Positions 10,770-25,931 of a DNA stretch of 64,000 nt are shown here, piece after piece (positions within the stretch are counted from its first letter, which is position 1; each line of letters begins with the position of its first letter). A program made the translations under genes and the position numbers. Source of the stretch: Celeribacter litoreus (GTDB lineage Bacteria > Pseudomonadota > Alphaproteobacteria > Rhodobacterales > Rhodobacteraceae); contig NZ_JAIUFY010000005.1 of NCBI RefSeq assembly GCF_020165855.1, positions 922,087 through 986,086 of the forward strand, in the 5' to 3' direction. The notes under the pieces were generated by a model, which was given only the letters and a program-made list of their open reading frames with translations, searched no databases and had not been told where the DNA came from.

Positions 10770-10847
10770 GGGAAGTTCCTTTGTTCGGTGTTCTTCCCTT
10801 CATGTGGTGCAATGCGGCAGATGGTTAATGCCTACTTACATCACCCC

Positions 10848-10870
10848 ACTTATGACCCGATTTCATGAAT
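10848..10870. promoter_or_regulatory. LysR-type box, copy 2 (upstream of exported CMD gene)
   Basis: ACTTATGA (10848-10855), 7-nt spacer, TCATGAAT (10863-10870). It differs from the perfect dyad at 13456-13478 by two half-site bases and has T-N11-A at its centre. It lies between the LysR stop and the CMD-fold gene start. Confidence 0.6.
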
Positions 10871-10875
10871 AGTCT

Positions 10876-11772: not shown

Positions 11773-11877
11773 GAGGGAAGCCGGGGATTGGGAGTGGATG
11801 ATCAAACGGGTTCCCTCACGATATATGTTCCACACTCATAAAGTCGATGGATTGTGCGGAGTTAACTGTTGAAAATT

Positions 11878-12912
11878 TCAGTCTGTGAGTCTCACAAGGC
11901 TGTCATCAGAGGCCCCATCGCGCCGTGGTGAACGATTTGTGGTGATGGCGTAGACCTCATCTCCGACGACCAGCACATCACGGATGCGCCCGTCTCCGGG
12001 ATAGGCTTCGGTCACGTCGCCCTCGGTCGAGACCCCGAGCACCGCACCCGCCCGCAATCCGGCGAGCAAAAGACGGCCCTCATGCCACGTCAGACCGGAG
12101 GGCGCCCATGTGCTGCGGCCCGACTGGGCGAGGGGCGTTTGCATCCCTTCGCGGCGCTCGTTGCCTTGGATGACAGGCCAGCCGTAATTCCCGCCAGCCA
12201 CGATGCGATTGACCTCGTCATTGCCGGATTGCCCATGTTCTGCGGCATACATCTGGCCGGTTTCGTCCCAAGTGATCCCCTGCGGGTTGCGGTGTCCGTA
12301 GGAAAAGATGGGAGAGCCAGCAAAGGGATTGTCCTCTGGCACATCGCCATCCGGCGTCAGGCGCAGGATTTTCCCTGCAAGGCTCTCGAGGTCCTGCGGC
12401 AGGGCTGGGTTTTCGGTCCAGCCGGTCGTGACATAGAGCATGCCGTCGGGGCCAAAGGCGACACGTCCACCGTTGTAGAGCGGGTGGCCGGGGATGCCGT
12501 CGAAGAGCACGCGGGTTTCACGCCATGTCTCCCCATCGCGCTCTACCTCGATGACGCGATTGGTGCGTGCGTCGGGCGTTCCCGTGTGATGATAGAGGAC
12601 CGCACGACCCGTCTCGGCAAAGTCCGGACGCAGCGCGAGCCCCAAGAGCCCGCCGCCACGGTCATTGAGGATTGGCGCGCTCGCCAGGACCGGCAGTCGG
12701 GTAAAGCTCTCTCCGTCAAACAGGCCAAGTGTGCCTGCTTTTTCAGTGACATAGATGGTGCCCTCGTGGGCTTCGATGTCCCACGGGTAGTCGAGACCGT
12801 CGAGCACGGTCTCTCCATTGGCCATAGCTGCACCAGCCAGAGAGGCAGACAGCCCCACTCCGAGAGTGAGGCGCTGCAGGTTTCGAGTGAGCTTACTCGC
12901 CATATTCGGCAT
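11878..12912 (-). CDS. PQQ-dependent sugar (aldose) dehydrogenase, exported
   Basis: Soluble beta-propeller quinoprotein, about 344 aa, of the aldose sugar dehydrogenase (Yli/Asd) family. An N-terminal hydrophobic signal ending in AGAAMA predicts a periplasmic location. Conserved propeller and cofactor-region motifs are LDYPWDIEA, GGGLLGLALRPDF, SYGHRNPQGI, EHGQSGNDEVN and GGNYGWP. It would oxidise aldoses or aldehydes and pass electrons to the respiratory chain. The start lies inside the 3' end of the upstream cupin gene (ATG at 12912 or 12903), so translation is coupled. No PQQ biosynthesis gene is present in this window. Confidence 0.88.
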   Translation of the reverse strand: MPNMASKLTRNLQRLTLGVGLSASLAGAAMANGETVLDGLDYPWDIEAHEGTIYVTEKAGTLGLFDGESFTRLPVLASAPILNDRGGGLLGLALRPDFAETGRAVLYHHTGTPDARTNRVIEVERDGETWRETRVLFDGIPGHPLYNGGRVAFGPDGMLYVTTGWTENPALPQDLESLAGKILRLTPDGDVPEDNPFAGSPIFSYGHRNPQGITWDETGQMYAAEHGQSGNDEVNRIVAGGNYGWPVIQGNERREGMQTPLAQSGRSTWAPSGLTWHEGRLLLAGLRAGAVLGVSTEGDVTEAYPGDGRIRDVLVVGDEVYAITTNRSPRRDGASDDSLVRLTD

Positions 12913-13351
12913 CCGTGACTTTCTCACCCCATTCGACGGCGACGCCATCGACACCGGCCTGAATCGCATAGTGCGTCACAGAGGTGCTGTCGGTCGCGCC
13001 ATGCCAATGCTCGACGCCCGGCGGGCACCAGACCACGTCGCCAGCTTCGATGATGTGTTTTTCTTGACCGCGTTCCTGCGTCCAGCCAGTCCCGTGGGTG
13101 ATCACGAGCATCTGACCGGCAGGGTGGGTGTGCCATGCAGAGCGCGCGCCCGGGAGGAAGGTCACTTCGCCCGCGCTCACATCATTCATTTTTGGTGCAA
13201 AGACCGGAGACACGTAGGCTGTGCCAGTGAAAAACTCGTCGCTGCCGATTGAACCGGCGCGGTCGGCGTGGTGCGTGATTTCAACGGATTGCGCCGTCGC
13301 CATGAGGGGAGCGGCAGCTAGTGCCAGTCCGAGCAAGAGAGTGCGTTTCAT
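12893..13351 (-). CDS. Exported cupin-domain protein (paralogue of 8911-9306)
   Basis: 152 aa with an N-terminal signal peptide (residues 1-20, MKRTLLLGLALAAAPLMATA), so periplasmic. The cupin core matches the cytoplasmic paralogue. Ligands are His74, His76, Gln80 (WHTHPAGQ) and His115 (HWHG), and FFTGTAYVSPVF corresponds to [12 protein letters not shown]. It overlaps the PQQ dehydrogenase gene and shares an intergenic region, with a perfect LysR-type box, with the divergent alcohol dehydrogenase gene. Activity unproven; a manganese-type lyase or isomerase role is inferred from family ligands only. Confidence 0.9.
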   Translation of the reverse strand: MKRTLLLGLALAAAPLMATAQSVEITHHADRAGSIGSDEFFTGTAYVSPVFAPKMNDVSAGEVTFLPGARSAWHTHPAGQMLVITHGTGWTQERGQEKHIIEAGDVVWCPPGVEHWHGATDSTSVTHYAIQAGVDGVAVEWGEKVTDAEYGE

Positions 13352-13455
13352 CGTGTCTTTCCTTTGTCGAGGGTCAAAGTGTTTGCGACATCGCGTGTCG
13401 TTGCATTCAACCTAGGAAGCGGGGCGGGCATGATCATGGCCCGATCCTTCAGAGC

Positions 13456-13478
13456 ATTCATGATCGCGTCTCATGAAT
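13456..13478. promoter_or_regulatory. LysR-type box, copy 3 (perfect dyad between exported cupin and alcohol dehydrogenase)
   Basis: ATTCATGA (13456-13463), 7-nt spacer TCGCGTC, TCATGAAT (13471-13478): a perfect 8-bp dyad with T-N11-A at its centre. It is placed to act on both divergent genes, about 105 bp from the cupin start and about 90 bp from the alcohol dehydrogenase start. Confidence 0.65.
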
Positions 13479-13566
13479 GGCTTGAGGGGAAGGGAGATTA
13501 TCCCCGACGGGATTTGCGCCATTTTACAGTGCGTACTTCAATCCCCTTCCCAACAGAGAGGACGCT

Positions 13567-14769
13567 ATGTGCGAAGCCTGTAATAACTCACCTGAATTTC
13601 TCACTCGCGACGGCGAGAGTCGCCGCGGTTTCCTGACATCTGCGGGTGCTGCCGCCGTTGCAGCGCCGCTGGCAGCCACGAGCTTTGCTGGGGCCGCCCA
13701 TGCGCAGAGCGCCGATGCAATGGCTGAGAGCCAAGTTCAATCCTGGGCCGCATTTGATACCGACGGCTCTTTTGCGCCGCACACCATCACCCGCCGCGCC
13801 GCAGGGCCGAAAGATGTGGTCATCGAGATCATGTATAGCTCGATCTGCCACTCCGACATCCACACCTACAAAGGCGACTGGGGTCCTGCCGTGTACCCGC
13901 TGGTTCCGGGCCACGAGATGGTGGGCCGCGTTGTGGCCGTGGGCGCGGACGTGATCAAGTTCCGCGAAGGCGATTATGCCGGTGTTGGCACCATGGTCGA
14001 TAGCTGTGGCGAATGCGCCAACTGCCTCGCCGACCGCGAACAGAACTGCCTTAACGGCACGACCTTCACCTATGGGTCCGAGGACAAAATCTCCGGCGGT
14101 ATCACCTATGGCGGATATTCCAAGAAGATCGTCGTCAAGGAAGAGTTCGCCCTGCGCATCCCGCCGGGAGTTGATCTCGCTGGTTTTGCCCCGCTGCTTT
14201 GCGCCGGCATCACCACCTTCTCCCCGATCAATCACTGGGACCTGAAACCGGGTCAGCGCTATGGCGTCATCGGCATGGGCGGTCTCGGCCACCTCGCCGT
14301 GAAACTTGCCGTCGCGAAAGGTGCCGAGGTTGTGGTCTTCACCACCTCCGAGGACAAAATCGCAGACGCCAAAGAGTTCGGTGCTGTCGAGGCCTATCTC
14401 TGGTCCGATGAAGAAGCGCTGGCCAAACAGGCGATGAGCTTTGATCTGATGATCTCCACCGTGCCCGTGGCTTACGACATGCAGCCGTTCCTCAACATGC
14501 TCAAACTCGACAAGACGCTGGTAAACGTCGGCGCTCTCTTCGAAGTTGAAGGCGCGCAAGGCATGATGATGGCGTTCAACCGTCAGAGCCTCGCTGGCTC
14601 CATGACCGGCGGCATTGCGGAAACGCAGGCTGTGATCGACTTTGCCGCCGACCACGGCGTGGCTGCAAGCTATGAGATGATCACGCCGGATCAGATTGGC
14701 GAAGCCTGTGAAAAGGTCGTCAACAAAGAGGCCCGCTACCGGTATGTCATCGACATGACTGCGGCCTGA
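13567..14769 (+). CDS. Tat-exported zinc-dependent alcohol dehydrogenase (YahK/CAD-like)
   Basis: Medium-chain zinc alcohol dehydrogenase, 400 aa. The catalytic zinc ligands are Cys94 and His116/Glu117, plus the later Cys in PLLCAGIT. The structural zinc Cys are 147, 150, 153 and 161. The NADP-binding motif is GMGGLGHLA. An N-terminal extension carries a twin-arginine signal (SRRGFLTS, Arg19-Arg20, then an Ala-rich stretch ending AGAAHAQS). A folded, cofactor-loaded enzyme would therefore be exported by Tat. Normal family members are cytoplasmic, about 350 aa, and lack this extension. An odd CEAC motif precedes the twin arginines. Divergent from the exported cupin. Confidence 0.9.
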   Translation: MCEACNNSPEFLTRDGESRRGFLTSAGAAAVAAPLAATSFAGAAHAQSADAMAESQVQSWAAFDTDGSFAPHTITRRAAGPKDVVIEIMYSSICHSDIHTYKGDWGPAVYPLVPGHEMVGRVVAVGADVIKFREGDYAGVGTMVDSCGECANCLADREQNCLNGTTFTYGSEDKISGGITYGGYSKKIVVKEEFALRIPPGVDLAGFAPLLCAGITTFSPINHWDLKPGQRYGVIGMGGLGHLAVKLAVAKGAEVVVFTTSEDKIADAKEFGAVEAYLWSDEEALAKQAMSFDLMISTVPVAYDMQPFLNMLKLDKTLVNVGALFEVEGAQGMMMAFNRQSLAGSMTGGIAETQAVIDFAADHGVAASYEMITPDQIGEACEKVVNKEARYRYVIDMTAA

Positions 14770-14779
14770 TGCCATCCTG

Positions 14780-14807
14780 TCAGGACGGGCGACTGCGTCC
14801 GTCCTGA
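14780..14807 (+). other. Intercistronic hairpin after the alcohol dehydrogenase gene
   Basis: TCAGGACGG (14780-14788) and CCGTCCTGA (14799-14807) form a perfect 9-bp stem with a 10-nt loop, 11 nt after the dehydrogenase stop and before the cyclophilin-like gene. No U-tract follows, so it more likely stabilises or modulates a dicistronic mRNA than ends it. Confidence 0.4.
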
Positions 14808-14833
14808 TGTACTTACTATGTGGAGCCAGGCAG

Positions 14834-15298
14834 ATGTTCAGATTTCTTGCGCGCTGTTTTCGCTCGGTCTTGCTCGGCCTCTTTGCTCTGACACTTCCGG
14901 CTTGGGCGGACGCATCCGATACGACACTTCAGAAAGACCCTCACATGACCAAAATCCAATTCACTTTCGGCTCCGAGGTTCTCACGGCCACGCTCGACGA
15001 CACCGCTGCGGGGCGTGATTTCGCTGCGATGCTCCCGCTTGACCTGATGCTGTCGGATTACCACGGTATCGAGAAAGTTTCCGACCTCCCGCGCAAACTC
15101 GACACCAGCGGCGCGCCGGATGCCTACAAACCCGAGACCGGCGACATCACGCTGTACGCGCCGTGGGGCAATCTCGCGATCTTTTACAAACCGTTCCAGA
15201 AATCCCGCGGATTGGTCCGGTTGGGTGCTTTCGACGGATCGCTTTCTGCGCTTGTCGCCGCCGGTGATACGTCTGTGCGGATCGAGCTCGCCGAGTGA
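14834..15298 (+). CDS. Exported cyclophilin-like-fold protein
   Basis: 154 aa. Residues 1-30 are a signal sequence (arginine-rich start, then LLGLFALTLPAWA), so the protein should be periplasmic or lipid-proximal. The rest matches the small cyclophilin-like family (DUF-type beta-barrel proteins), with FTFGSEVLTATLDDTAAGRDF, DITLYAPWGNLAIFYKPF and a glycine-rich end. These proteins often lie beside aldo/keto reductases, cupins and LysR regulators; their biochemical role is unknown. ATG at 14834 was chosen over 14807 because GGAG and AGG elements precede it. Downstream of the Tat-exported dehydrogenase. Confidence 0.85.
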   Translation: MFRFLARCFRSVLLGLFALTLPAWADASDTTLQKDPHMTKIQFTFGSEVLTATLDDTAAGRDFAAMLPLDLMLSDYHGIEKVSDLPRKLDTSGAPDAYKPETGDITLYAPWGNLAIFYKPFQKSRGLVRLGAFDGSLSALVAAGDTSVRIELAE

Positions 15299-15314
15299 GC
15301 GGCGTTCTCTGAGT

Positions 15315-15953
15315 TCACTCGCCTTCTTTCAATTCCGCATATTCCCCACGGACCAGTAGGGTGACGGTCACAGGCTCTTTGTCGCGGTTGCGCCAGAACC
15401 AGCCGTGTTGACCGTCGAAAAGCGCGATCAGTCCGCCCTCCGATCCAGCGGAGCCGCGCGCCTTTTCATAGGTAACGGACTGGTCCGCGCCATGCCCGTG
15501 CATGTCGAAATTGACGCGCCCACCCTCGACGGTCATGCGGTAGAGCGCGGTTTGGCCCTCAGTCATCACAAGTTTCCACTCCGCTGACTCCCCCGGTTCG
15601 AGTGTCAGACGAAGCTCATCACGCCAGTCCTCCGCGTCGAACTCCTCTGCAAAGGCTGGCGTGATAAAGAGACCGAAGAAGTGGTCGAGAAGGCTCGACT
15701 GGTCTCCATTTTCCGAGAGTTCTTTGGACATTTGCCTATCCATCTCAGCCTCTTCCGCGAGCTGGCTCTTGATCTCTCCCATTTCTGTCAGGCCCAGAAC
15801 ACGGCCCGCGCCGGTCGGGTCGATCCCGTATTCGGCAGGCAGGACGACCGTAAACAAGATGACGATCGCTGCACCAAGCGCGATCAACGTCGACTTCAAA
15901 AGCTGAGCGCTGCTCGGCAGGTCCTCGGTGGTGGGTTTGTCTGCGTTATACAT
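15315..15953 (-). CDS. Membrane-anchored periplasmic protein of unknown function (partner of HupE)
   Basis: 212 aa. One membrane segment (about 22-42, LIALGAAIVILFTVVLPAEYG) anchors a soluble domain that would face the periplasm. A second hydrophobic patch, FFGLFITPAFA (about 92-102), may be an additional anchor. The C-terminal part reads like a beta-rich sensor or binding domain (WKLVMTEGQTALYRMTV, FDMHGHG, GQHGWFWRN), with several His that could bind metal. Such anchors are commonly found directly after a HupE/UreJ gene in Rhodobacterales, as here (13 bp). The specific role is unknown. Confidence 0.8.
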   Translation of the reverse strand: MYNADKPTTEDLPSSAQLLKSTLIALGAAIVILFTVVLPAEYGIDPTGAGRVLGLTEMGEIKSQLAEEAEMDRQMSKELSENGDQSSLLDHFFGLFITPAFAEEFDAEDWRDELRLTLEPGESAEWKLVMTEGQTALYRMTVEGGRVNFDMHGHGADQSVTYEKARGSAGSEGGLIALFDGQHGWFWRNRDKEPVTVTLLVRGEYAELKEGE

Positions 15954-15966
15954 GGGACGCGTCCTT

Positions 15967-16677
15967 TCACGTTGAGCTGGCCACGAGGAAACCGGTGATC
16001 TGGTATCCCATGAGAATGAAGCCCATGGACATCATGAAGACGTTGGCGGTGTAGGCATGGCGCCAGAAGCTGTCTTGGCGCCGCCACCACCCCATCGCGA
16101 TCAGGATGACGGACAGCGCCATGATCTGCCCGAGTTCGACACCGACGTTGAACGCGAGAAGATTGGGCAAGAGCCCCTCGGCGGCGATGTCGTAGTCGAG
16201 GATTTTGGTGGCGAGCCCCAAACCGTGGACGAAGCCGAAGATCAGCGTGGCGAGTTTGGTGTCCGGCTGAATTCCGAACCACCGCTGATAGGCCCCGAGG
16301 TTGTCGAGGGCTTTATAGACCACTGAAAGGCCGATGATGGCGTCGATCAGATAGGCATTCACGTCCCAGCCGAAATAGACACCGGCGAGCATGGTGGTCG
16401 AATGGCCGAGAGCGAAGAGGCTCACATAAATCGCGACGTGCTGCATCCGGTAGAGGAAGAAGACGACACCCAAGAGAAACAGGATGTGATCGTAACCTGT
16501 AACCATGTGCTTCGCGCCGAGATAGGCGAAGGGTATGAGATTGGCGCCCCAGATCTCCTGAATATAGCCCGCGTCGCCCTCAGTTACGTTGTGTGCAGAG
16601 GCTTGCGTCGCAAATGAGGCGAGGACGAGCAGCAGGACAACAGCCAAAAGGGCGCCGAAGCCACGGGCGTACCGCAT
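15967..16677 (-). CDS. HupE/UreJ-family metal-transport membrane protein
   Basis: About 236 aa with a signal-like first segment (ending ATQASA-H) and about six more helices. Conserved HupE/UreJ elements are GYDHILFLLG, FALGHSTTM, FGFVHGLGLA and FNVGVELGQ. The His and Asp in these helices are family features linked to nickel or cobalt transport. No hydrogenase or urease gene is present here, so the metal and client enzyme are unknown. ATG 16677 has AGGAACGGA before it. A GTG at 16707, with its own GGAGAG, would add 10 residues. Operon with the membrane-anchor gene. Confidence 0.85.
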   Translation of the reverse strand: MRYARGFGALLAVVLLLVLASFATQASAHNVTEGDAGYIQEIWGANLIPFAYLGAKHMVTGYDHILFLLGVVFFLYRMQHVAIYVSLFALGHSTTMLAGVYFGWDVNAYLIDAIIGLSVVYKALDNLGAYQRWFGIQPDTKLATLIFGFVHGLGLATKILDYDIAAEGLLPNLLAFNVGVELGQIMALSVILIAMGWWRRQDSFWRHAYTANVFMMSMGFILMGYQITGFLVASST

Positions 16678-16825
16678 TCCGTTCCTGACCGCCTGTTCGG
16701 CTTTCACGTGCGCTCTCCCAAAATTGCGACGTCTCCGCGAAGGGACACACCTCTTTGGTAGGGGAGCCGAGCCTATCGTATCAAGTTGTCCGTAGGTCGC
16801 AAATTTGAGTGTGGTGCGGAGAGGC

Positions 16826-17818
16826 TCACTTCACCACATCGGCGAATTCGAGAAGGTCGACGGGGGGCCAGACACCGATCTCGCCCGCAAAGCTCAAATT
16901 CACGGTGAGGGCAAATTCTTCCATCTTCGCAACGGGGAGGGAACCGGGGTCTTGGCCGTCAATAAGGATTGCGGCCACTTGTTGCCCAGCCAACTGCCCG
17001 ACGTCGTAGTAACGTGCCGCCACAGAGATAAGTGCATTGCCGTCGCGCACCATTTCTTCGTAGGAGCTGATCACCGGGAGTTCGGCCGATTTCGCGGCGG
17101 ATCCGAGGATTGCTGCATTCGAGCGCAGGAAGGACGAACTGCCGACATAGAGCGCATCAGCACCGTTATGTTTCAGCCGCCGCACAAGTTCACCGATGTC
17201 TTCGACCTTTGGTAACCCCGCCTCTGTGAGTTCAAAGCCGATATCAACGAAATCGATGCCCATCTCGGGAAGAAGAGCGGCCAATTCGTCACGCTTCACA
17301 ACAGAATTCGTCTCATTCGGGTTGTAGAGCAGGCCGAGTGTTCCGAAATCGGGAACAATCCGACGCAGGGTGTTGACGGTGACTGTTTCCGGCACGCGAT
17401 TGTAGGTGCCCGTCAAATTCGGCCGCCCCGTGGCTTCAAGGCTCTCGACGATGCCAGAGCCGACAGGGTCTGCAACGATCATGAAGACTTGGGGAATGTC
17501 GGTATTTTTTGCCGCATCGTTGCGTTGCGCCAGTGTCCCTGCGGTGGCGAGAGTGACTGACGTGCCCCACGAAATGATGGCATCGACACTTGAGGCGCGC
17601 GCCTCGGGAACGATCCCTTCGAGCTGCTCCTTGTCTCTCGCCGCATCACGCACGGTGACTTGGATGTTAGGGTCAACCTCATTGAGATAGTCGAGTACCC
17701 CCTGACAAGCCTCCTCACAGCCTCGCCATGTGGCGAAGAGCACATGCTTTTCCTCTGCGGCGGCTTGCGTCGCAAATAACGCGAGGGCCATTGCTGCTAG
17801 CGTCTTACGTCTCGTCAT
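16826..17818 (-). CDS. Periplasmic binding protein, ABC_sub_bind (TrpX-type) family
   Basis: 330 aa. Residues 1-20 are a signal peptide (ALALFATQAAA). The mature part is a two-lobed type I binding fold with family motifs VLFATWRGCEEAC, SWGTSVTLATAGTLAQ, VGSGIVESL and LGLLYNPNETNSVVKRDEL. In other bacteria such proteins bind tryptophan or other small ligands for ABC importers, but no ABC permease or ATPase gene is nearby. It overlaps the preceding sensor-MFS gene by 4 bp (ATGA), so it is co-expressed with it. The likely job is to present a ligand to the Cache-like domains of the two upstream proteins. Confidence 0.88.
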   Translation of the reverse strand: MTRRKTLAAMALALFATQAAAEEKHVLFATWRGCEEACQGVLDYLNEVDPNIQVTVRDAARDKEQLEGIVPEARASSVDAIISWGTSVTLATAGTLAQRNDAAKNTDIPQVFMIVADPVGSGIVESLEATGRPNLTGTYNRVPETVTVNTLRRIVPDFGTLGLLYNPNETNSVVKRDELAALLPEMGIDFVDIGFELTEAGLPKVEDIGELVRRLKHNGADALYVGSSSFLRSNAAILGSAAKSAELPVISSYEEMVRDGNALISVAARYYDVGQLAGQQVAAILIDGQDPGSLPVAKMEEFALTVNLSFAGEIGVWPPVDLLEFADVVK

Positions 17819-19707
17819 GGTGCTCGAACCTCTCCCTTTCGATCCCAATTCTGGGTCATGATGAGGAAACCCGCAGCACCACACAAGGAGAGCAGGCCAA
17901 GAATTGAAAAGATCACCGCCGGATCGCTGTCGGTTTCAAAAAAGAAAACAGTGACAAAGGCGACGATGGCACCAACGCGCTCCGAGAGGCGATATCGGGC
18001 GATCCAGATCGGGTTTCTACCGGAGCGGGACACGACCAGCGCATAGAGCGGCGCTCTCAGGACGGCATGTCCAATCCCGAGGAGTGCGACCACGAATACG
18101 GGAGGCGTTCCATAAAATCCTGCGCTAAAAAGCGCTGTCGCAGCCATGAGCGCACCAATGCCGGCCACGAAGCTGTCTTTGAGTCCGAGTGAGACGGAGA
18201 CATTGCTTGCGATTGGCGACACCAGAATGGCTGCGAGGTAGTAGAGCATGACAATGCGGGCGATCATCGTGGTCTCAAAGCCTGCTTGGGACAGGTTCAA
18301 AGGTATCAAATACCAGACCACGATGGCGGTGCTCGCACTCATCGGGACGGCGAGGAAGGCCACAATGGTGGCGAACGGGATAACGCGGCGTGCCTCGGTT
18401 TGCGCGGCTGTGGTCGTCTTTGCGACTTGGCCTGCAGGTCCCGAAAGGCCCCAGTAGGCAGCCATCGATGCGATCATCGTTGTTACTACGCCGAGGAGAA
18501 TAGCCGCCGGATATCCCACTTCAAATGCTGTAATCCCGCCGATAACCGATCCCGATAGCACGCCGCCATAAAGTGCCGTGTTGAGTGAGGCCTGTGTCTG
18601 GGCGGCAGCCTCCGTTCCGCCCGCGCGCAGCATGAAGGCGGAGCAGGCGACAGCCGCAAGCGTATAGCCCGCACCGACACACATGCGCCCGAAAGCGATC
18701 AGGGCAAGATTTTGGGTGCTCGCCATTGCGATCAGGCCGATCAGGATTGGGAGAGTTGCCCAGAAGAATGCTTTCTGTGGGCCGATGCGCTGGTTCGCGC
18801 GTGCCGCGACAGGCGCAAAAACGGCGGCTGCAAACAGATAGAGCACCAGTGGCAGAGCAGCAGCAATCGGGGCGGGGAGTGCCTCCATCCTGTCGGCATT
18901 ACGCGCCATGATCGGGAGGAAGGAGGCCGTCGTCTCGGTCCCTAGCGCGAGCAGGAACATCGGCAAGCGACCGGTCAACGGGAGAGAGACGTCCAGCCGT
19001 TTCGGGCGCTCACCGTTGGCAAGATGCAGCGCGCGGTCGTTCAGTCGCGTGACAAGTCTCCGGAGCGGGGCGTCCGGGGGCACAGAAATCGTTCTCGTGA
19101 AATCTCCGCGACTTTGGGCCTCGAGGAGGCGCATGACGGCGGCACGCGGCTGCCAGATCGTTCGCGCGGCAAGCGCGAGCATGATCTCGACACCCAAAAA
19201 GATGATCGCAAGCGCAACAACACCGATTTCGATCAAGACACCGAACAGGCGCGTCTCGATTTGGCGTGGATCGCCAACAAGCTGGATTTCGGCTGTGATC
19301 TTGCTTCCGGAAATAACAGAGTAGGTGCTCGTCCATGCAACGTCACCTTCAGCAGTTCGCTCTGCGTCGGCGATGTTCCCGTTCTGGATTTGAACCAGCA
19401 CCTCACGGCTGTTTGCAACAATGCGGACTTCGCGGACCTCCGGAAATGCCTTGACCGTCGATGCGATCCGCTGATCGAGCCCCGCAACCGCGTCGATCGG
19501 AATGCCGAGATCGAGGGTTCGCTGGATGTCATCGCGGAGCATCGTGCCAAGAAGATCCATCCTCTGACGCAGCTCCGGTGCAATCGCATTGTTGTAGGCG
19601 CGATAGGTCGCAGCGGAGAACGTCGCAATTGTCATTGCGATGATCAATGCGAGCGCGAGGGTGACGCGCAGGCGCAAATCCTTTTTGGAAATGACGGCGC
19701 GGCGCAT
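17815..19707 (-). CDS. Sensor/HAMP-like domain fused to an MFS transporter
   Basis: 630 aa. Order of parts: membrane helix at about 13-35, periplasmic domain of about 120 residues (36-154) resembling small Cache sensors, second helix at about 155-180, then a HAMP-like cytoplasmic linker (about 181-232, with QPRAAVMRLLEAQSRGDF and a second amphipathic helix). A complete MFS domain follows (about 245-625, roughly 12 helices; loop with ARANQRIGPQKAFFW). The sensor front end is what one expects on a histidine kinase or diguanylate cyclase, here joined to a transporter. It starts at TGATG with the upstream sensor gene and ends at ATGA with the binding-protein gene. Substrate unknown. Confidence 0.85.
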   Translation of the reverse strand: MRRAVISKKDLRLRVTLALALIIAMTIATFSAATYRAYNNAIAPELRQRMDLLGTMLRDDIQRTLDLGIPIDAVAGLDQRIASTVKAFPEVREVRIVANSREVLVQIQNGNIADAERTAEGDVAWTSTYSVISGSKITAEIQLVGDPRQIETRLFGVLIEIGVVALAIIFLGVEIMLALAARTIWQPRAAVMRLLEAQSRGDFTRTISVPPDAPLRRLVTRLNDRALHLANGERPKRLDVSLPLTGRLPMFLLALGTETTASFLPIMARNADRMEALPAPIAAALPLVLYLFAAAVFAPVAARANQRIGPQKAFFWATLPILIGLIAMASTQNLALIAFGRMCVGAGYTLAAVACSAFMLRAGGTEAAAQTQASLNTALYGGVLSGSVIGGITAFEVGYPAAILLGVVTTMIASMAAYWGLSGPAGQVAKTTTAAQTEARRVIPFATIVAFLAVPMSASTAIVVWYLIPLNLSQAGFETTMIARIVMLYYLAAILVSPIASNVSVSLGLKDSFVAGIGALMAATALFSAGFYGTPPVFVVALLGIGHAVLRAPLYALVVSRSGRNPIWIARYRLSERVGAIVAFVTVFFFETDSDPAVIFSILGLLSLCGAAGFLIMTQNWDRKGEVRAP

Positions 19708-20456
19708 CACAGGCGCGCCTCCCGCAAACGGTGGTATTCTGCTTCCGCTGCGCTCATGAGCGCCTCAACGTCTCCTGTTGGGCGGTCCTCGTGGGTGGTC
19801 TCATCGCGCCACATCTGCTGCATAGAGGCTGCGTCGGCAGAGAGAAACACGTCGTCGATCCGCTTTTCACGGTCAAAGACAAACCGCACAGCGAGCATTG
19901 AGAAAATGCTACTGAGCACACAGAACCCGAGCGCGGCCGTGGCGAGCCGTCCGGCCATCGCCCAAACGGCCGTGCGCGCCGTTTCGCCGGAATACTCCAT
20001 CAACAGGGCCCCGACGATATCGCCGGAGGGTCGCGTAAAAGTTCTGAGGTAGCGAAAGGTGCCGCTCTCCTGAAAACTGGTCCCGGAGGCAGCGTCCTCA
20101 AAATAGCGTTGTATCTCCGGCGTTTCGAGGCTGATCGTGCTCCGTGCGGTGCTCTTCACAATCGCACCGTTTCTATCGAGAACATGGAGCGCCATGATTG
20201 CCTCATCCGATTGGCGTGCACGTTCGAGGATAGAGTCGAGATTGCGCACCGAGGCGAGATCCAGGCCGATCATCGCGGCGGAGGCCAGGGGCTCTGAGGC
20301 GCGATCCGCGACCGCCGTCAGGCGTTCTTTTTCCAGTCCTGTCCGGACCTGATCGAACTGCAAAACCGCGAGAACAACGAAAACGACGAGCACTGCGATA
20401 TTGATCGCGACCGCTGAGAGGATCGGTCCCCGGTATGAAAATGAATTTGTTTGCAT
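19707..20456 (-). CDS. Cache-like membrane sensor protein without an output domain
   Basis: 249 aa. One helix at 12-34, a periplasmic region 35-160 with a PAS/Cache-like pattern (IMALHVLDRNGAIVKS, then FRYLRTFTRPSGDIVGALLMEYS), a second helix at 163-193 and only about 55 cytoplasmic residues. No kinase, cyclase, effector or helix-turn-helix domain follows. It is the first gene of the operon and overlaps the sensor-MFS fusion by one base (TGATG). It is paralogous in layout to the front part of that fusion, suggesting that the two form a hetero-complex. No clear Shine-Dalgarno precedes its ATG. Confidence 0.75.
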   Translation of the reverse strand: MQTNSFSYRGPILSAVAINIAVLVVFVVLAVLQFDQVRTGLEKERLTAVADRASEPLASAAMIGLDLASVRNLDSILERARQSDEAIMALHVLDRNGAIVKSTARSTISLETPEIQRYFEDAASGTSFQESGTFRYLRTFTRPSGDIVGALLMEYSGETARTAVWAMAGRLATAALGFCVLSSIFSMLAVRFVFDREKRIDDVFLSADAASMQQMWRDETTHEDRPTGDVEALMSAAEAEYHRLREARL

Positions 20457-20836
20457 TTAGAGAATTGTTACGGGGCGGTTCGGATCGCTGTCAACTGAGG
20501 CGCGATAATCGCGCAAATCTGCTCTCTGTTTTTCGCGATGTGCCCCCGAAACCATCACAGACTAGCCAGCTGGGTGGAATCAATCGGTCGGCCAAGGTGT
20601 CTAAGCGAGCGGGGCGGAGACCGTCGTGGCGACGTTGGTTTGAGGTGGTTTTGGGGAGAATTTCGCATGAATGCAGCGGTTTGAGTGCCGGTCGGAGGCT
20701 GATCCAAAGTAAATGTTTGCGCTAATTTTCTGAGGCAAATCCGTGCTTTAGTCGGCATTTTATGTTTTGCGGAATAATTGTTAATTGACAGAACAATTAT
20801 GCTTCTGCATCTTTCTTTCAAACGGGAGGAAAATTC
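20457..20836. other. Divergent promoter region between the sensor-MFS operon and the hydroxycinnamate operon
   Basis: 380 bp without a believable gene; short frames on each strand overlap each other and lack ribosome sites. The right half is AT-rich and holds the inverted repeat described at 20774-20800 with a -35-like TTGACA. Nothing recognisable was seen in the left half apart from the presumed promoter of the minus-strand operon. Confidence 0.6.
20774..20800. promoter_or_regulatory. Inverted-repeat operator, probably for the MarR-type regulator
   Basis: ATAATTGTT (20774-20782), 9-nt spacer, AACAATTAT (20792-20800): a perfect 9-bp dyad. A consensus -35 hexamer TTGACA (20785-20790) lies in the spacer, so a bound dimer would block RNA polymerase. 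It is 37 bp from the first gene of the hydroxycinnamate operon, which also encodes a MarR-family regulator. The link to that regulator is inferred. Confidence 0.6.
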
Positions 20837-21601
20837 ATGGAAATCGAAGGGCGTGTCGCCGTTGTGACCGGCGCCGGCAGTGGGCTTGGGTTCGCGACTG
20901 CTAAAAGGCTAGCAGAGCAGGGCGCACGTGTCGCCATTCTTGATCTGTCCAATGACGCAGCGGAAAATGCGGCTGCCGAGATTGGTGGAACTGGCTATGC
21001 AGTGGACGTAAGCGATCCGGCGGCTGTTGAAGCGACCTTCGCGAAAATCGAGAGCGATCTGGGCACACCGCGCATCGTTGTATCCTGTGCGGGCATCGGA
21101 ACGGCTGCGCGCATCCTGCCGCGCGACGGCTCCCTAACGATCGACACCTTTGCAAAGGCCCTGAACGTCAACTTGCTGGGCACTTACGCGGTGATGAACA
21201 TCGCAGCCCGCGCCATGGCGGCGGCGGATGCGATTGACGACGATGGCGCCCGCGGCGTGATCATCAACACCTCTTCTGTCGCTTTCGAAGACGGTCAGGT
21301 CGGCCAAGCTGCCTACTCTGCATCCAAGGGCGGCGTTGCCTCCATGACCTTGCCTGCCGCGCGCGAACTGTCGCGCTTTGGCATCCGTGTGATGGCAATT
21401 GCGCCGGGCCTATTCGAGACGGCCATGAGTGCCGGACTTCCGGACGACATCAAGGCCGATATCCTCAAGAACGTTCCCTATCCGTCGCGCATGGGCGATC
21501 CGGATGAATATGCGCGCCTCGCGCAGGCGATTGTCGAGAACCCGATGCTGAACGGGACGACCATCCGCCTCGACGCCGCTGCGCGTATGCCAATCAAATA
21601 A
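20837..21601 (+). CDS. SDR-family 3-hydroxyacyl-CoA dehydrogenase
   Basis: Cytoplasmic NAD-dependent short-chain dehydrogenase, 254 aa, close to the type 2 3-hydroxyacyl-CoA dehydrogenase (HSD10-like) group. Cofactor motif TGAGSGLG is near residues 11-18; the NNAG position reads SCAG. Catalytic Ser lies in INTSSVA, Tyr and Lys in YSASKGG. The C-terminal VPYPSRMGDPDEYA is typical of this group. In context it should oxidise the beta-hydroxyacyl-CoA made from a hydroxycinnamoyl-CoA to the beta-keto form. Strong Shine-Dalgarno (GGGAGGA). First gene of the operon. Confidence 0.9.
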   Translation: MEIEGRVAVVTGAGSGLGFATAKRLAEQGARVAILDLSNDAAENAAAEIGGTGYAVDVSDPAAVEATFAKIESDLGTPRIVVSCAGIGTAARILPRDGSLTIDTFAKALNVNLLGTYAVMNIAARAMAAADAIDDDGARGVIINTSSVAFEDGQVGQAAYSASKGGVASMTLPAARELSRFGIRVMAIAPGLFETAMSAGLPDDIKADILKNVPYPSRMGDPDEYARLAQAIVENPMLNGTTIRLDAAARMPIK

Positions 21602-21632
21602 GACAAACAAAAAGACGAAAAGAAGAGCCGCT

Positions 21633-22406
21633 ATGACAACTGATGCCGATATCTTGAAGGTTGAAATCGAAGGGGCGATCGCGACCCTGACGATGAACCG
21701 TCCGCACAAACGCAATGCAATGTGCGACGAACTGTTGGACGCGCTCGACGGGTTTTTCTCTGCGCCGCCGGAAGGTGTGCGCGTGGTGATCCTCACTGGC
21801 ACCGCAGGGCATTACTGTTCCGGGCTCGACCTGTCCGAGCACGTCGCCCGCGACGCGGAGGGCACCATGCGCCACTCCCGCAACTGGCACGGCGTGATGG
21901 ACAAAATCCAATTCGGCGGCCTGCCGGTCATCTCCGCGATGTTCGGTGCTGTCATCGGGGGCGGTCTGGAACTCGCCGCGTCCACGCATGTCCGTATCTC
22001 TGAGCCCTCCACGATTTTCCAGCTGCCCGAGGGGATGCGCGGGATTTTCGTCGGTGGTGGCGCGTCCGTCCGTATTGGCCGCATCCTCGGTGCAGATCGC
22101 ATGTGTGAGATGATGCTCACCGGTCGCAAATACAACTCTGACGAGGGCCTCGCACTTGGCCTGACGCATTACGCCGTGGACGAAGGGGAGGCGCTCGCGC
22201 TCGCGCAGAAGCTCGCAGCGAAGATCGCAAAGAACGCGACCCTGTCCAACTACATGATGATCCAGGCCATCAGCCGGATCGAAGACATGGCGAAATCTGA
22301 CGGTCTGTTCATGGAAAGCATGTGTGCTGCCGTGTCCCAGACCAGCAAGGACGCCGAAGAAGGCCTCAAGGCCTTCCTCGAGAAACGTGTACCTGTGTTC
22401 CGTTAA
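21633..22406 (+). CDS. Enoyl-CoA hydratase (crotonase family), hydroxycinnamoyl-CoA hydratase candidate
   Basis: 257 aa crotonase fold. The oxyanion-hole segments are HYCSGLDLSEH and GAVIGGGLELA, and an acidic residue lies in the LPEGMRGIFVGGGAS segment. It should hydrate the side-chain double bond of feruloyl-, coumaroyl- or caffeoyl-CoA. Two outcomes are possible in this family: simple hydration (beta-oxidation route) or hydration with retro-aldol cleavage to vanillin (hydratase-lyase). A hydroxyacyl-CoA dehydrogenase beside it and no vanillin dehydrogenase in the cluster favour the first. The stop codon lies inside a hairpin loop (22391-22415). Confidence 0.88.
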   Translation: MTTDADILKVEIEGAIATLTMNRPHKRNAMCDELLDALDGFFSAPPEGVRVVILTGTAGHYCSGLDLSEHVARDAEGTMRHSRNWHGVMDKIQFGGLPVISAMFGAVIGGGLELAASTHVRISEPSTIFQLPEGMRGIFVGGGASVRIGRILGADRMCEMMLTGRKYNSDEGLALGLTHYAVDEGEALALAQKLAAKIAKNATLSNYMMIQAISRIEDMAKSDGLFMESMCAAVSQTSKDAEEGLKAFLEKRVPVFR

Positions 22407-22415
22407 AACACAGGT
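22391..22415 (+). promoter_or_regulatory. Hairpin enclosing the stop codon of the hydratase gene
   Basis: ACCTGTGTT (22391-22399) and AACACAGGT (22407-22415) form a 9-bp stem; the 7-nt loop contains the TAA stop. A second stem, CGGGCG at 22431-22436 with CGCCCG at 22448-22453, follows. The position, between enzyme genes and the binding-protein gene, suggests RNA processing or segmental stability control. Confidence 0.4.
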
Positions 22416-22513
22416 CCGAGGAGATCGACACGGGCGGCACGGGAGGTCGCCCGCGTTGGACACATCGTAGTCCGGCAATGACCGGACACTGTCATGACAT
22501 GGGAGGAATTTAC

Positions 22514-23554
22514 ATGACACAGATGACCCGCCGTATGGCGATGGCGACGATGGGCGCCGCACTTGCTACCCCTGCATTCCTGAAAAAAGCACACGCTGCC
22601 GAAGTGACCCTCCGCGTTGGTCACTTCCTGCCGGGTGTCGCGCCGATGCAGACCCGTTTCTTTGACGTCTGGGCCAAAGAGATCGCAGACGCCACTGACG
22701 GTGCGATCGAAATGCAGATGTTCCCGTCCATGCAACTCGGTGGCAAGCCGCCTCAGCTCGCCGATCAGGCACGTCAGGGTATCGCAGACATCACATGGAC
22801 ACTGCCGGTCTACACGCCGGACCGTTTCCCGGTAGCTGAAACGATGGCAATGCCGTTTATGGTGACCAACGCGGAGAAAACCTCTGTCGCGATGCACACC
22901 CTGATGGATGAATTCGGTCAGAACGAATACAAGGGCCTGAAACCGCTCGCGTTCCACACTCACGACGGTGGCAAGTTCCACACCCGTGGTCAGCGCGTGT
23001 CCACGGCTGAAGACCTCAAGGGCCTCAAACTGCGCGCGCCGAACCAGGCGACGGGCAAGATGCTCGAACTAATGGGCGCAGAGACCGTGTTCTTCCCGGT
23101 GACCGAGATGGTTGTTGGTCTGTCCAACGGCGTGATCGACGGCTGCTGTCTTCCGTATGAGGTTGTTCCAGCCTTCAAGCTTCAGGAACTGACCTCGATC
23201 TCCAACGAGCCGGAAGCCGGTTCTCGCGGTCTGTACGCCAACACATTTGCTCTCGTCATGAACGAGCGCAAATACGAAGGTCTCTCCGACGATCTGCGCA
23301 AAGTCATCGACGATCACTCCGGCATCGACCTGTCCCGTCGCCTCGGCGCGCAGTTCGACGAGTTTGAGGCCTTCGGTCGCGGTGTTGTCGAAAAGCAGGG
23401 CAACGAGATCCACACCATTCCGGGCGCAGAAATCGCTAAATGGCGTGAGATGGCTACTCCGGTCTACGAAGAGTGGATCGGCAAGCTCAACGACGCTGGC
23501 CTCGACGGTGCTGCGATCGTTGGCCGCGCGAACGAACTTCTGGACGCGGGCTAA
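22514..23554 (+). CDS. TRAP transporter periplasmic binding protein (DctP type)
   Basis: 346 aa. The signal region has a twin-arginine-like TRRMAM followed by an Ala-rich segment ending KKAHA-A, so the protein is periplasmic, perhaps via Tat. The mature part shows DctP-family motifs (RVGHFLPG, FPSMQLGGKP, LKLRAPNQATGKMLELMGA, NGVIDGCCLP). The ORF could extend upstream, but ATG 22514 has a strong GGGAGGA. It works with the DctQ and DctM genes that follow. Given the operon, the ligand is probably a hydroxycinnamate such as p-coumarate or ferulate, as known for related TRAP proteins in aromatic-degrading alphaproteobacteria. Confidence 0.92.
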   Translation: MTQMTRRMAMATMGAALATPAFLKKAHAAEVTLRVGHFLPGVAPMQTRFFDVWAKEIADATDGAIEMQMFPSMQLGGKPPQLADQARQGIADITWTLPVYTPDRFPVAETMAMPFMVTNAEKTSVAMHTLMDEFGQNEYKGLKPLAFHTHDGGKFHTRGQRVSTAEDLKGLKLRAPNQATGKMLELMGAETVFFPVTEMVVGLSNGVIDGCCLPYEVVPAFKLQELTSISNEPEAGSRGLYANTFALVMNERKYEGLSDDLRKVIDDHSGIDLSRRLGAQFDEFEAFGRGVVEKQGNEIHTIPGAEIAKWREMATPVYEEWIGKLNDAGLDGAAIVGRANELLDAG

Positions 23555-23559
23555 TCGAG

Positions 23560-24099
23560 ATGGCCGAACGGCTTAATATCGAGACGGATCAGGGGGAGCA
23601 TACCCCCCTGTTCCGGACCCTCCGGGTCATCTGCCTCGCCGCTGCGGGCCTCGGCGGCGCCGTCATCTTTGCGGCGTCTCTGGCTGTTACTTTGTCTGTC
23701 GTGATGCGCAACATCGGCATCGGCGGCATTCGCGGTGACTTTGAATTGGTGGAACTGGCCTGTGCGGCCTGTGCCTCACTGTTTCTACCTCTGTGCCAGT
23801 TCAACAAAGGCCACGTTATGGTCGATCTTTTTACTCTTTGGCTCAAACCCGTCACCCAACGTCGGTTCGATGGTGTTTGGACACTCATTTTCGCGGTGTG
23901 CTGGGCGTTTCTGACATGGCGCCTCGTGATGGGGCTTCTCGAAATGCATGACTACGGAGACAAGACAATGCTGCTGCGCGCGCCCGTCTGGTGGGCTTAT
24001 GTGCCGGCTGTCTTTGGCACCGGACTGTCAGCCATCGTTGCGCTCATTCAGAGCCTTCCGATGATGAGCAATGCCTTCCGCGCTCTGGAGGTCCGCTGA
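23560..24099 (+). CDS. TRAP transporter small permease (DctQ type)
   Basis: 179 aa integral membrane protein with four helices, typical of DctQ. Recognisable features are VVMRNIGIGGIRGDFELVEL after helix 1 and the FNKGHVMVDLFT segment in the middle. The start at 23560 (ATGGCCGAA) follows the binding-protein stop by 5 bp. Its TGA overlaps the DctM start (TGATG), so the three genes are translationally linked. Confidence 0.9.
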   Translation: MAERLNIETDQGEHTPLFRTLRVICLAAAGLGGAVIFAASLAVTLSVVMRNIGIGGIRGDFELVELACAACASLFLPLCQFNKGHVMVDLFTLWLKPVTQRRFDGVWTLIFAVCWAFLTWRLVMGLLEMHDYGDKTMLLRAPVWWAYVPAVFGTGLSAIVALIQSLPMMSNAFRALEVR

Positions 24100-25421
24100 T
24101 GGAACCGCTCACGATTGCAATCATTATGGTCGTGGTGCTGTTGCTCCTGATCTTCGCGCGGATGCCGATTGCCCTTGGTATGGGCTTGGTCGGTGCCGCG
24201 GGCTACATCGCGCTCGCCTCTCCCTATGCGCTCATGGCCTATTTCAATACGGCGTGGGTCGACAAATTCATGTCCTATGAACTGGCCATCGTGCCGCTGT
24301 TCATCCTGATGGGGCATCTTGCGACGCGCTCCGGCATCTCCGCCGCCATCTTCGCCGCGTCAAATGCGTGGATCGGTCACTTGCGTGGCGGTCTAGCAAT
24401 GGCCTCTGTCGCGGGTTGTGCGATGTTCGGCTCCATCTCCGGTTCGTCGCTTGCGACTGCCTCCACGATGGCGCGTGTGGCATTGCCCGAAATGCGCAAG
24501 CACGGGTATTCCGGTGCTCTGGCGTCAGGGTCTCTCGCGGCTGGTGGCACGCTCGGCATCCTGATCCCGCCGTCCGTGGTGCTGATCATCTACGCGCTGC
24601 TCACAGAGCAGAACATCGTGAAGCTGTTCCTCGCGGCGACAATTCCTGGCATTCTGGCTGTGATCGGCTTCTGTATCGCCATCGCTGTCTATGTGCGCCT
24701 TTACCCGAATGAGGGTCCGACCCACGAACCGGCGAGCTTTGGTCAGCGTTTGAAAGCGCTCAAGGATATCTGGCACGTTGTTTTGATCTTCGTGATCGTT
24801 CTCGGTGGTATCTACGGTGGTTTCTTCACACCCGCCGAAGGCGCCTCTGTCGGCGTGATCCTGATGTTGGTTGCGGGTCTTTTGACCAAAGGTCTCAATG
24901 GTCGCGCGATCCTCGATTGCCTGATTGATACCGCCGGGTCGACTGCAATGATCTTTGCCATCGTGTTCGGTGCGGACATCTTCAACGTCGCGCTGGCCCT
25001 GAGCCGTATGCCGACCGAGGTCGCAGACTATTTCTCGGCTGCGCACGTCTCGCCGATGCTGGTGCTGATGGGGATCATTGTCTTCTATCTGGTGATGGGC
25101 TGCCTCATGGACAGTCTCTCCATGATCCTGCTCACGGTTCCGGTCTTCTTTCCGACGATCATGGCGCTCGATTTCGGCCTAATGCCGGAACAGCAAGCGA
25201 TGTGGTTCGGGATCATCTCTCTCGTCGTCGTGGAGATGGGACTGATCACGCCACCGGTGGGGATGAATCTCTTCGTCATCTCGTCTATGGCGAAGGACAT
25301 CCCGACCAGCCAGATCTTCCGGGGCACGACACCATTCATCATCGCGGAGTTCTTCCGGATCGCCATTCTCGTGAGCTTTCCGGTCCTGAGCTTCTGGTTG
25401 GTTGATCTGGTCGCGAACTGA
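24099..25421 (+). CDS. TRAP transporter large permease (DctM type)
   Basis: 440 aa, about 12 hydrophobic helices, the sodium-coupled transport subunit. Family motifs include GSISGSSLATASTMA, ASGSLAAGGTLGILIPPSV, FFTPAEGASVGV and GLITPPVGMNLFVI. The start overlaps the DctQ stop. With the two preceding genes it forms a complete high-affinity uptake system placed inside the hydroxycinnamate operon. Confidence 0.93.
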   Translation: MEPLTIAIIMVVVLLLLIFARMPIALGMGLVGAAGYIALASPYALMAYFNTAWVDKFMSYELAIVPLFILMGHLATRSGISAAIFAASNAWIGHLRGGLAMASVAGCAMFGSISGSSLATASTMARVALPEMRKHGYSGALASGSLAAGGTLGILIPPSVVLIIYALLTEQNIVKLFLAATIPGILAVIGFCIAIAVYVRLYPNEGPTHEPASFGQRLKALKDIWHVVLIFVIVLGGIYGGFFTPAEGASVGVILMLVAGLLTKGLNGRAILDCLIDTAGSTAMIFAIVFGADIFNVALALSRMPTEVADYFSAAHVSPMLVLMGIIVFYLVMGCLMDSLSMILLTVPVFFPTIMALDFGLMPEQQAMWFGIISLVVVEMGLITPPVGMNLFVISSMAKDIPTSQIFRGTTPFIIAEFFRIAILVSFPVLSFWLVDLVAN

Positions 25422-25437
25422 GGAAAGAGGACCAGAT

Positions 25438-25887
25438 ATGAAAAAATCATGCGAACCCAAGGTGACAACCGACTGCAACCTGCGTCAGTTCGTTGGCTAC
25501 AATATGAAGCGCGCTTTCCTGACAGTGCGTGAAGACCTCGCCAGCGTTCTTGAGCCGATCGGGCTTCGCATGACCTCGTTCTCCGCTTTGGCGGTGATCG
25601 TTGAAAATCCTGACATCTCCCAGAGCCGCCTCGCCGAGGCGTTGCATATCGAACGCTCCGGCGTGGTGGTGCTGGTGGATGAACTGGAACGCGCAGAATT
25701 TATCGAGCGCGGACGCGTTGAGGGGGACCGGCGGCAGTATGCCCTGCGTGCCACCCCGATCGGCGAGGCCAAATGGGCCGAGGCGGAAAAAGCCGTCCAT
25801 GCTCACGAAGACGGTCTGTTCGCAGACCTGACTGATGAGGAACGCGCCAGCCTGAAGTCCCTTCTGGGCCGGGTTGGACGGAAATAA
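25438..25887 (+). CDS. MarR-family transcriptional regulator of the hydroxycinnamate operon
   Basis: 149 aa winged-helix repressor. Recognition region: SQSRLAEALHIERSGVVVLVDELERA, then the wing (RGRVEGDRRQYALRATPIG). Related regulators in hydroxycinnamate clusters (CouR/FerC type) bind the CoA thioester of the substrate and release DNA; that effector is inferred here. It lies between the transporter and the CoA ligase genes, 16 bp after DctM, with a GGAAAGAGG ribosome site, so it is probably autoregulated as part of the operon. The dyad at 20774-20800 is its best candidate operator. Confidence 0.88.
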   Translation: MKKSCEPKVTTDCNLRQFVGYNMKRAFLTVREDLASVLEPIGLRMTSFSALAVIVENPDISQSRLAEALHIERSGVVVLVDELERAEFIERGRVEGDRRQYALRATPIGEAKWAEAEKAVHAHEDGLFADLTDEERASLKSLLGRVGRK

Positions 25888-25931
25888 TCCGAGAGGAACA
25901 ACAGCGCAGATCGCTGTCTTGGGAGGAAGTA

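Follow-up and report, generated by a model that had tools for sequence, protein, structure and literature searches.

A 64,000-nucleotide stretch of the Celeribacter litoreus genome (contig NZ_JAIUFY010000005.1, positions 922,087 to 986,086; "the window" below) holds a trio of overlapping genes, all on the minus strand, in which what looks like the front end of a receptor runs directly into a membrane transporter. Gene 1 (19707..20456) encodes a membrane sensor of 249 residues, gene 2 (17815..19707) a fusion, 630 residues from its ATG, of a second sensor and a predicted HAMP domain to a domain of the major facilitator superfamily (MFS), and gene 3 (16826..17818) an exported ABC_sub_bind solute-binding protein, 330 residues from its ATG. 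The three genes keep their order in most of the relatives studied and are inherited together, the fusion is a single chain with a predicted transporter fold, and charged residues of its MFS domain are conserved. The reading we favour, tentatively and at a little under an even chance, is that the trio is a binding-protein-dependent receptor that directly controls an MFS transporter.

An earlier, sequence-only reading of this DNA had described gene 2 as a transmembrane sensor and HAMP-like linker fused in frame to a full MFS transporter, and had proposed structure prediction as a check. The AlphaFold2 model (mean pLDDT 88.7, pTM 0.88, built on 73 sequences) and Pfam, which finds MFS_1 at residues 251-565 (1.2e-13, 51.2 bits against a cut-off of 33.4), agree with that description, the model placing the sensor, the HAMP helices and a 12-helix MFS in one chain. 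On the model, residues 8-66 (19510..19686, on the minus strand like all features of the trio) form the first transmembrane helix (TM1) and a periplasmic stalk helix, and residues 77-145 (19273..19479) a Cache-like periplasmic domain. Residues 147-199 (19111..19269) form the second transmembrane helix (TM2), passing into HAMP helix 1 with P187, and are followed in the model and alignment by G201-D202-F203; residues 216-229 (19021..19062) form HAMP helix 2, and residues 243-623 (17839..18981) a complete 12-helix MFS domain.

The fusion from the window has no Pfam HAMP or Cache match above cut-off, and the case for these domains comes largely from its family. In an alignment of 20 members, window included, Pfam finds MFS_1 in all 20, HAMP in eight (best 1.4e-10) and sCache_3_2, weakly, in three, and the predicted order of helices and strands fits Cache. 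A second alignment comprises the window and 72 of the 80 fusions described below; here the HAMP proline (P187) is invariant in all 73 rows, and the spacing from E174 to the glycine of the GDF motif is 26-27 residues in all 72 relatives. Family matches, invariant proline, spacing and model together support the HAMP assignment, for which the window copy alone would be no proof. Neither Pfam nor the model gives the fusion a kinase, cyclase, phosphatase or methyl-accepting chemotaxis protein output; the sole domain after HAMP is the MFS.

Gene 1, called from its open reading frame (ORF) and an alignment of 72 sensors plus the window, has TM1 at about residues 6-41, a periplasmic Cache-like part, TM2 at about residues 163-195 and a short cytoplasmic tail. 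No Pfam family scores above cut-off and no output domain is present, in keeping with the earlier description of a membrane sensor without one. The 1-4 bp overlaps among the three genes, also noted earlier, are borne out by the ORF coordinates: the fusion stop and the binding-protein start share 4 bp (17815..17818), and gene 1 overlaps the fusion by 1 bp if the latter starts at its ATG, or by 4 bp with an alternative GTG at 19710. For gene 3 a longer frame from a GTG at 17884 is possible; the nearest relative (G016) also starts gene 3 at the overlap. A likely Sec signal peptide with an AxA-type end was recognized by eye at about residues 1-21 (17756..17818).

The MFS domain is the best conserved part of the fusion, with a mean majority fraction of 0.55 versus 0.43 for Cache and 0.41 for HAMP. 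The window copy keeps R247, E258, R341, R484, R573, E576 and R577, of which R484 (69 of 72) and R341, R573, E576 and R577 (71 of 72 each) are near-invariant in relatives. In five relatives (L052, L057, L088, L103 and L139) a second front end ends in a membrane domain unrecognized by Pfam, either MFS-like but decayed or shorter, and in these second-pair copies, which lie beside a SpoIIE phosphatase or a cyclase, most of the charged residues are lost or unaligned, as far as they can be aligned. Because its charged residues are near-invariant, it is the best conserved part and the decayed copies differ, we consider the MFS of the trio, judged from sequence, to be under transporter-like constraint, unlike the copies beside SpoIIE or cyclase; transport itself is predicted. 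A fold search of the PDB with the MFS part returned YajR, VMAT2, NorA and LmrP among the six best-ranked matches. We take these best-ranked matches to be drug/proton or amine/proton antiporters, and regulated export therefore seems somewhat likelier than import.

Relatives were sought with one degenerate MFS pattern in one genome per species from 84,980 species, which gave 182 confirmed relatives. Rates per locus refer throughout to the best 80 of the 182, ranked by likeness to the whole fusion, a ranking that favours full-length fusions. Since the search used only the fusion, by MFS pattern and then by whole-fusion ranking, neither flanking gene played a part in the selection. The order sensor, fusion, binding protein nevertheless holds in 73 of the 80 loci, a count in which automatic counts of 67 and 69 were completed by reading locus rows and which includes L123 despite its broken fusion. 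In four of the 73 (L092, L156, L160, L165) both sensors form one chain. The binding protein comes first in two further loci (L145, L166), contig ends cut four (L101, L143, L150, L155), and in the last (L161) no binding protein lies next to the fusion. Put differently, 77 loci have the binding protein and the fusion in one gene run; of the three that do not, two are cut by contig ends. Seven pairs of loci appear to share a contig and are not to be counted twice (L051/L110, L052/L147, L057/L152, L059/L166, L062/L137, L066/L090, L067/L132).

The sequence-only reading had asked for co-occurrence and gene order to be checked, and had allowed that the three genes might rarely be neighbours elsewhere or that the fusion might split at the HAMP/MFS junction. 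What we see is one conserved unit: the three are adjacent in 75 of the 80 loci (in four of the remaining five a contig end intervenes), and in the relatives read the fusion is a single frame, with the exception of L123 (Vibrio maritimus JCM 19240). There the frame is broken inside the MFS and the binding-protein match is shortened; in a second V. maritimus strain (L097) both frames are long. The suggestion that the two sensors act as a pair also gains from the relatives, in that they belong together and are carried in one chain by four of them. A model of one such chain (L156; pLDDT 82.1, pTM 0.79), in which sensor 1 rests on four sequences, has two TM-Cache-TM units followed by HAMP and then the MFS.

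The relatives bear 29 genus names, besides metagenome-assembled genomes (MAGs), and are presumably mostly Alpha-, Beta- and Gammaproteobacteria, partly on the basis of MAG titles. One MAG labelled Stygiobacter has a Magnetospirillum-type gene order and is probably mislabelled. In a first search the fusion matched in 11 of 101 genomes at E <= 0.001, weak and plain-MFS matches included, and the full trio was found in the window genome and five others (G016, G067, G058, G034, G099). Within the genus only two of 20 genomes (the window's own and G016) have a match, and an evenly drawn sample of 398 genomes of the phylum contains 10 that match the fusion at E <= 1e-60. Of 46 window ORFs, in a list that omitted the binding-protein gene, two alone, the sensor and the fusion, have a match in the 19-kb G016 locus. 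Given the two genomes in 20 and the recurrence in G016 of the sensor and fusion only, among the listed ORFs, the trio behaves as a self-contained, patchily inherited unit. The distance matrices of the three families (the third from an alignment of 73 binding proteins plus the window) agree with r of 0.895-0.909 over 65 sets, window included, against a permuted maximum of 0.177, an agreement that is partly species descent.

The mechanism we have in mind would begin with the exported ABC_sub_bind protein capturing a small solute. The loaded protein would dock on the Cache domains that sensors 1 and 2 contribute to a putative hetero-pair, or pass its ligand to them, and the signal could be relayed through TM2 and HAMP much as in chemoreceptors and sensor kinases. 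HAMP, with no kinase or cyclase involved, would then act on the MFS transporter joined to it, changing its conformation or its activity. That the MFS takes the place of an output domain, as the sequence-only reading implied, follows from two genomes (L060, L061) in which the related Cache-HAMP front end of a second pair is fused to a dCache-HAMP-SpoIIE protein; these front ends are related to that of the trio fusion at 64 bits (L060) and 98 bits (L061).

Neighbouring genes were scanned with profiles over the 80 loci, up to 7 kb on each side. A formyltransferase-like protein was found in 17 loci and a GNAT-like protein in 10, with no locus shared (P 0.078, not significant). Formyl_trans_N was confirmed by Pfam in all four formyltransferase-like proteins scanned; the GNAT assignment is weaker, two of four having Pfam acetyltransferase matches, one of them above cut-off. 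Counting only genes on the same strand that start no more than 200 bp before or 60 bp after the end of the trio, we find VgrG in 13 loci, SpoIIE in nine, formyltransferase in eight and GNAT in seven. Examples confirmed by Pfam include SpoIIE with HAMP or dCache, some with HATPase_c_2, as well as STAS, PAAR, Hcp, ImpA_N, VgrG-type proteins and DUF6931, and in L052 an adenylate cyclase stands in place of SpoIIE. None of SpoIIE, VgrG, formyltransferase and GNAT was found in 17 of the 80 loci, some of which are short contigs. The earlier proposal that control operates without phosphorylation fits the window, where neither the trio nor the scanned neighbours include a kinase or phosphatase, but as a general rule it is doubtful in view of the loci with SpoIIE and the cyclase of L052.

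Several observations weigh against direct control of a transporter by the receptor. A SpoIIE phosphatase domain occurs in 34 of the 80 loci, STAS in 19 and VgrG in 23, neighbours that would fit a purely signalling role equally well, and non-fused MFS relatives stand beside hybrid histidine kinases in L085 (7116-13206) and L087 (3428-9964). The stretch from the end of HAMP (residue 225) to R247 varies in length, with 38-68 residues among relatives against 22 in the window, a variation that speaks against a rigid lever. The window copy is itself divergent, being without K457, R368 and D505, which are present in 68-70 of 73 rows; importers, sugar importers included, also appear among the top 50 fold matches; and the shared descent behind the matrix agreement belongs here too. 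The main rival, possible if on the unlikely side, is that the MFS is a transceptor, that is, a membrane-embedded receptor or scaffold and not a pump, and that the trio is an input device for separate partners: a Cache-HAMP-SpoIIE phosphatase with STAS, a cyclase, or regulation of a type VI secretion system (T6SS). The SpoIIE, STAS and VgrG neighbours speak for it, as do the second sensor pairs whose decayed MFS-like domains adjoin SpoIIE or cyclase, the front ends fused to SpoIIE, and the two plain MFS relatives that adjoin hybrid kinases as transporter-like sensors do, with UhpC as the model of an MFS-like sensor. In contrast to the decayed second copies, the MFS of the trio nonetheless keeps its transporter-like charges and is the most strongly conserved part of the chain, and at six more non-fused MFS loci no kinase motif, sensor or binding-protein match turned up by motif and profile. 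Moreover, the trio can exist without such partners nearby, since 17 loci have none of the four neighbour types and the window genome gave no match to TssK/VasE PF05936, the sole core T6SS family tried, its one clear SpoIIE being a REC-SpoIIE protein encoded on another contig. If the MFS were a transceptor, the trio would more fairly be described as a variant of something known than as a new kind of system.

Direct control by the receptor might also extend to a closed loop of making, exporting and sensing a compound, which we regard as unlikely. The acyl-transfer-type neighbours (formyltransferase, GNAT, ATP-grasp ligase) would produce a small amino compound or tag one, its export would fall to the HAMP-MFS protein, the binding protein would read its level outside, and the sensor pair would gate export together with SpoIIE phosphatase, cyclase or T6SS where these are present; no acyl-transfer-type enzyme was seen beside the trio in the window. 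The opposite direction of flux, in which the binding protein hands its ligand straight to an MFS importer, as in TRAP and TTT systems, and the sensor pair is a docking platform only, seems to us improbable. A dedicated binding protein in the gene run of the fusion in nearly all loci speaks for such an importer, and so does the lack of an ABC partner among the ten window neighbours scanned; a HAMP domain with fixed spacing is hard to explain as a mere platform, though, the best-ranked fold matches are antiporters (importers do occur in the list), and the acyl-transfer-type enzymes beside some relatives suggest a compound that is made or modified. As for an artefact, with a frameshift or assembly join making the fusion and a random neighbourhood, nothing but the one broken copy in another species (L123) hints at it, and its probability is negligible against in-frame fusions in many assemblies (20 and 73 aligned, both sets chosen as long frames) and the recurrent gene order; for the fusion itself, frameshift or misassembly is ruled out by the many in-frame copies in other assemblies.

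Other gene arrangements were noted around the relatives. In L073, L077 and L081 the neighbours are an ATP-grasp ligase, a double-Cache-MFS protein of about 800 residues, from a related family with both Cache-like parts ahead of the MFS, and an ABC_sub_bind protein, the last identified by Pfam in L077 and L081 and by profile only in L073. A plasmid of Azospirillum brasilense Sp7 (L017) bears a relative that comprises a sensor, the fusion region, a binding protein and an ATP-grasp gene. In Magnetospirillum a Cache-HAMP-SpoIIE protein is encoded next to the trio. In five Rhizobium-group genomes (L105, L111, L113, L148, L159; about 10100-12300), which also have VgrG upstream, a protein of about 700 residues with two Cache-like parts, judged by eye, and many membrane helices lies between the trio and a SpoIIE phosphatase; the two of the five that were scanned gave no Pfam match. 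The hybrid kinases of L085 and L087 carry GAF, PAS, receiver and Hpt domains, and L087 has an ABC_sub_bind-like protein as well. In L163 the trio and a GNAT-like gene have a further neighbour (10803-13508, minus strand), whose product looks, judged by eye, like a Ser/Thr kinase at its N-terminus and like Cache/HAMP proteins at its C-terminus.

The binding protein scores 120.1 bits against ABC_sub_bind (PF04392; 1.4e-34, gathering cut-off 25.9). Its earlier label of TrpX-type stands at the level of this superfamily but not for TrpX itself, as the score against the TrpX model NF041285 is 111.6 bits, below the equivalog cut-off of 390. We considered and rejected a tryptophan receptor, given that score and a conserved WGT that differs from the matching stretch of PDB 3lft, which we take to be TrpX. 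Parts of the DctP/TctC or DctQM/TctAB type were not found, ABC_sub_bind being the only family above cut-off in gene 3 and MFS_1 the only one in gene 2. The sequence-only reading had remarked on the lack of an ABC permease or ATPase nearby, and none is present among the ten neighbouring proteins scanned with Pfam (window 11881-25884, to which the search of this genome for a partner was confined). The idea that gene 3 is the remnant of an ABC importer was likewise set aside, as no permease or ATPase appeared among these ten or in the recurrent neighbour clusters that were annotated, several smaller clusters being left unannotated.

Within the window, no SpoIIE or STAS was found among the neighbours scanned. 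A T6SS role in this organism was rejected for want of a TssK match, one family having been tried. Since there is no such match and the only clear SpoIIE lies on another contig, the trio may work here alone or with other partners. On one side of it (15315-16707, minus strand) lie genes for a HupE/UreJ-type membrane protein and then for a 212-residue protein with no Pfam or NCBIfam match at the thresholds used. On the other (20837-27749, plus strand) is a divergent cluster with an SDR dehydrogenase and a crotonase-family protein (PRK08150 above cut-off), a DctP-type TRAP binding protein with two likely membrane genes behind it (these two not scanned), a MarR regulator that weakly resembles Saro_0803, and an acyl-CoA synthetase of large size whose best model is PRK12582 (655 bits, cut-off 777). 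The cluster looks suited to taking up an organic acid, perhaps an aromatic one, and degrading it in a CoA-dependent way. A functional link between it and the trio was considered and dropped, because only the sensor and the fusion recur at the G016 locus and the link is thus not conserved.

HAMP domains have been studied as relays to enzymes and to chemoreceptor tips. If the trio works as we propose, receptors could control membrane flux without a second messenger, HAMP acting straight into a transporter, and a binding-protein-linked MFS would join the two known types of binding-protein-dependent secondary transporter, TRAP and TTT. The closed loop, if real, would add a new class of signalling device along with a HAMP-controlled secondary transporter. 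For many bacteria from the sea, from soil and from plants, the trio is also a candidate, and testable, source of the signal upstream of SpoIIE and T6SS clusters, and annotations that recognize no more than an MFS transporter and an ABC substrate-binding protein would be refined.

In the literature covered, which was judged by titles and the starts of abstracts and excluded most subscription journals, no HAMP-MFS fusion or operon of this kind is described. The nearest systems share features with the trio. Cache-HAMP receptors, namely chemoreceptors, sensor kinases and SpoIIE phosphatases, have a TM-Cache-TM-HAMP front end like the one predicted for the fusion, with HAMP-like spacing, whereas here a 12-helix MFS transporter follows HAMP. 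In LuxP-LuxQ, TorT-TorS and ChvE-VirA a periplasmic binding protein feeds a membrane receptor, as we propose, but the output is a histidine kinase. TRAP and TTT systems combine secondary transport with a dedicated periplasmic binding protein, using other transporter and binding-protein families and no receptor or HAMP parts. E. coli YajR (PDB 3wdo), the best-ranked fold match of the MFS part, is an MFS protein with an extra YAM domain, which is C-terminal and cytoplasmic and has a regulatory role; it is without periplasmic sensor, HAMP or binding protein. UhpC, the sensor for the kinase UhpB, links an MFS protein to signalling as a separate protein without HAMP fusion. By Pfam the chains of the trio contain no histidine kinase, unlike the transporter-sensor kinases CbrA and UhpB/UhpC. 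In CbrA of Pseudomonas putida an SLC5 domain, active as a transporter, shares a chain with a sensor kinase (PMC7096432), so that a secondary transporter and signalling parts are likewise joined. Its output is the kinase beside SLC5, whereas here HAMP receptor parts precede an MFS and no kinase follows, and the abstract mentions no binding protein for CbrA (PMC7096432). All parts of the trio belong to known families, and we regard their arrangement as a new kind of system because in it a transporter follows directly on HAMP and an MFS protein has a binding protein at its service.

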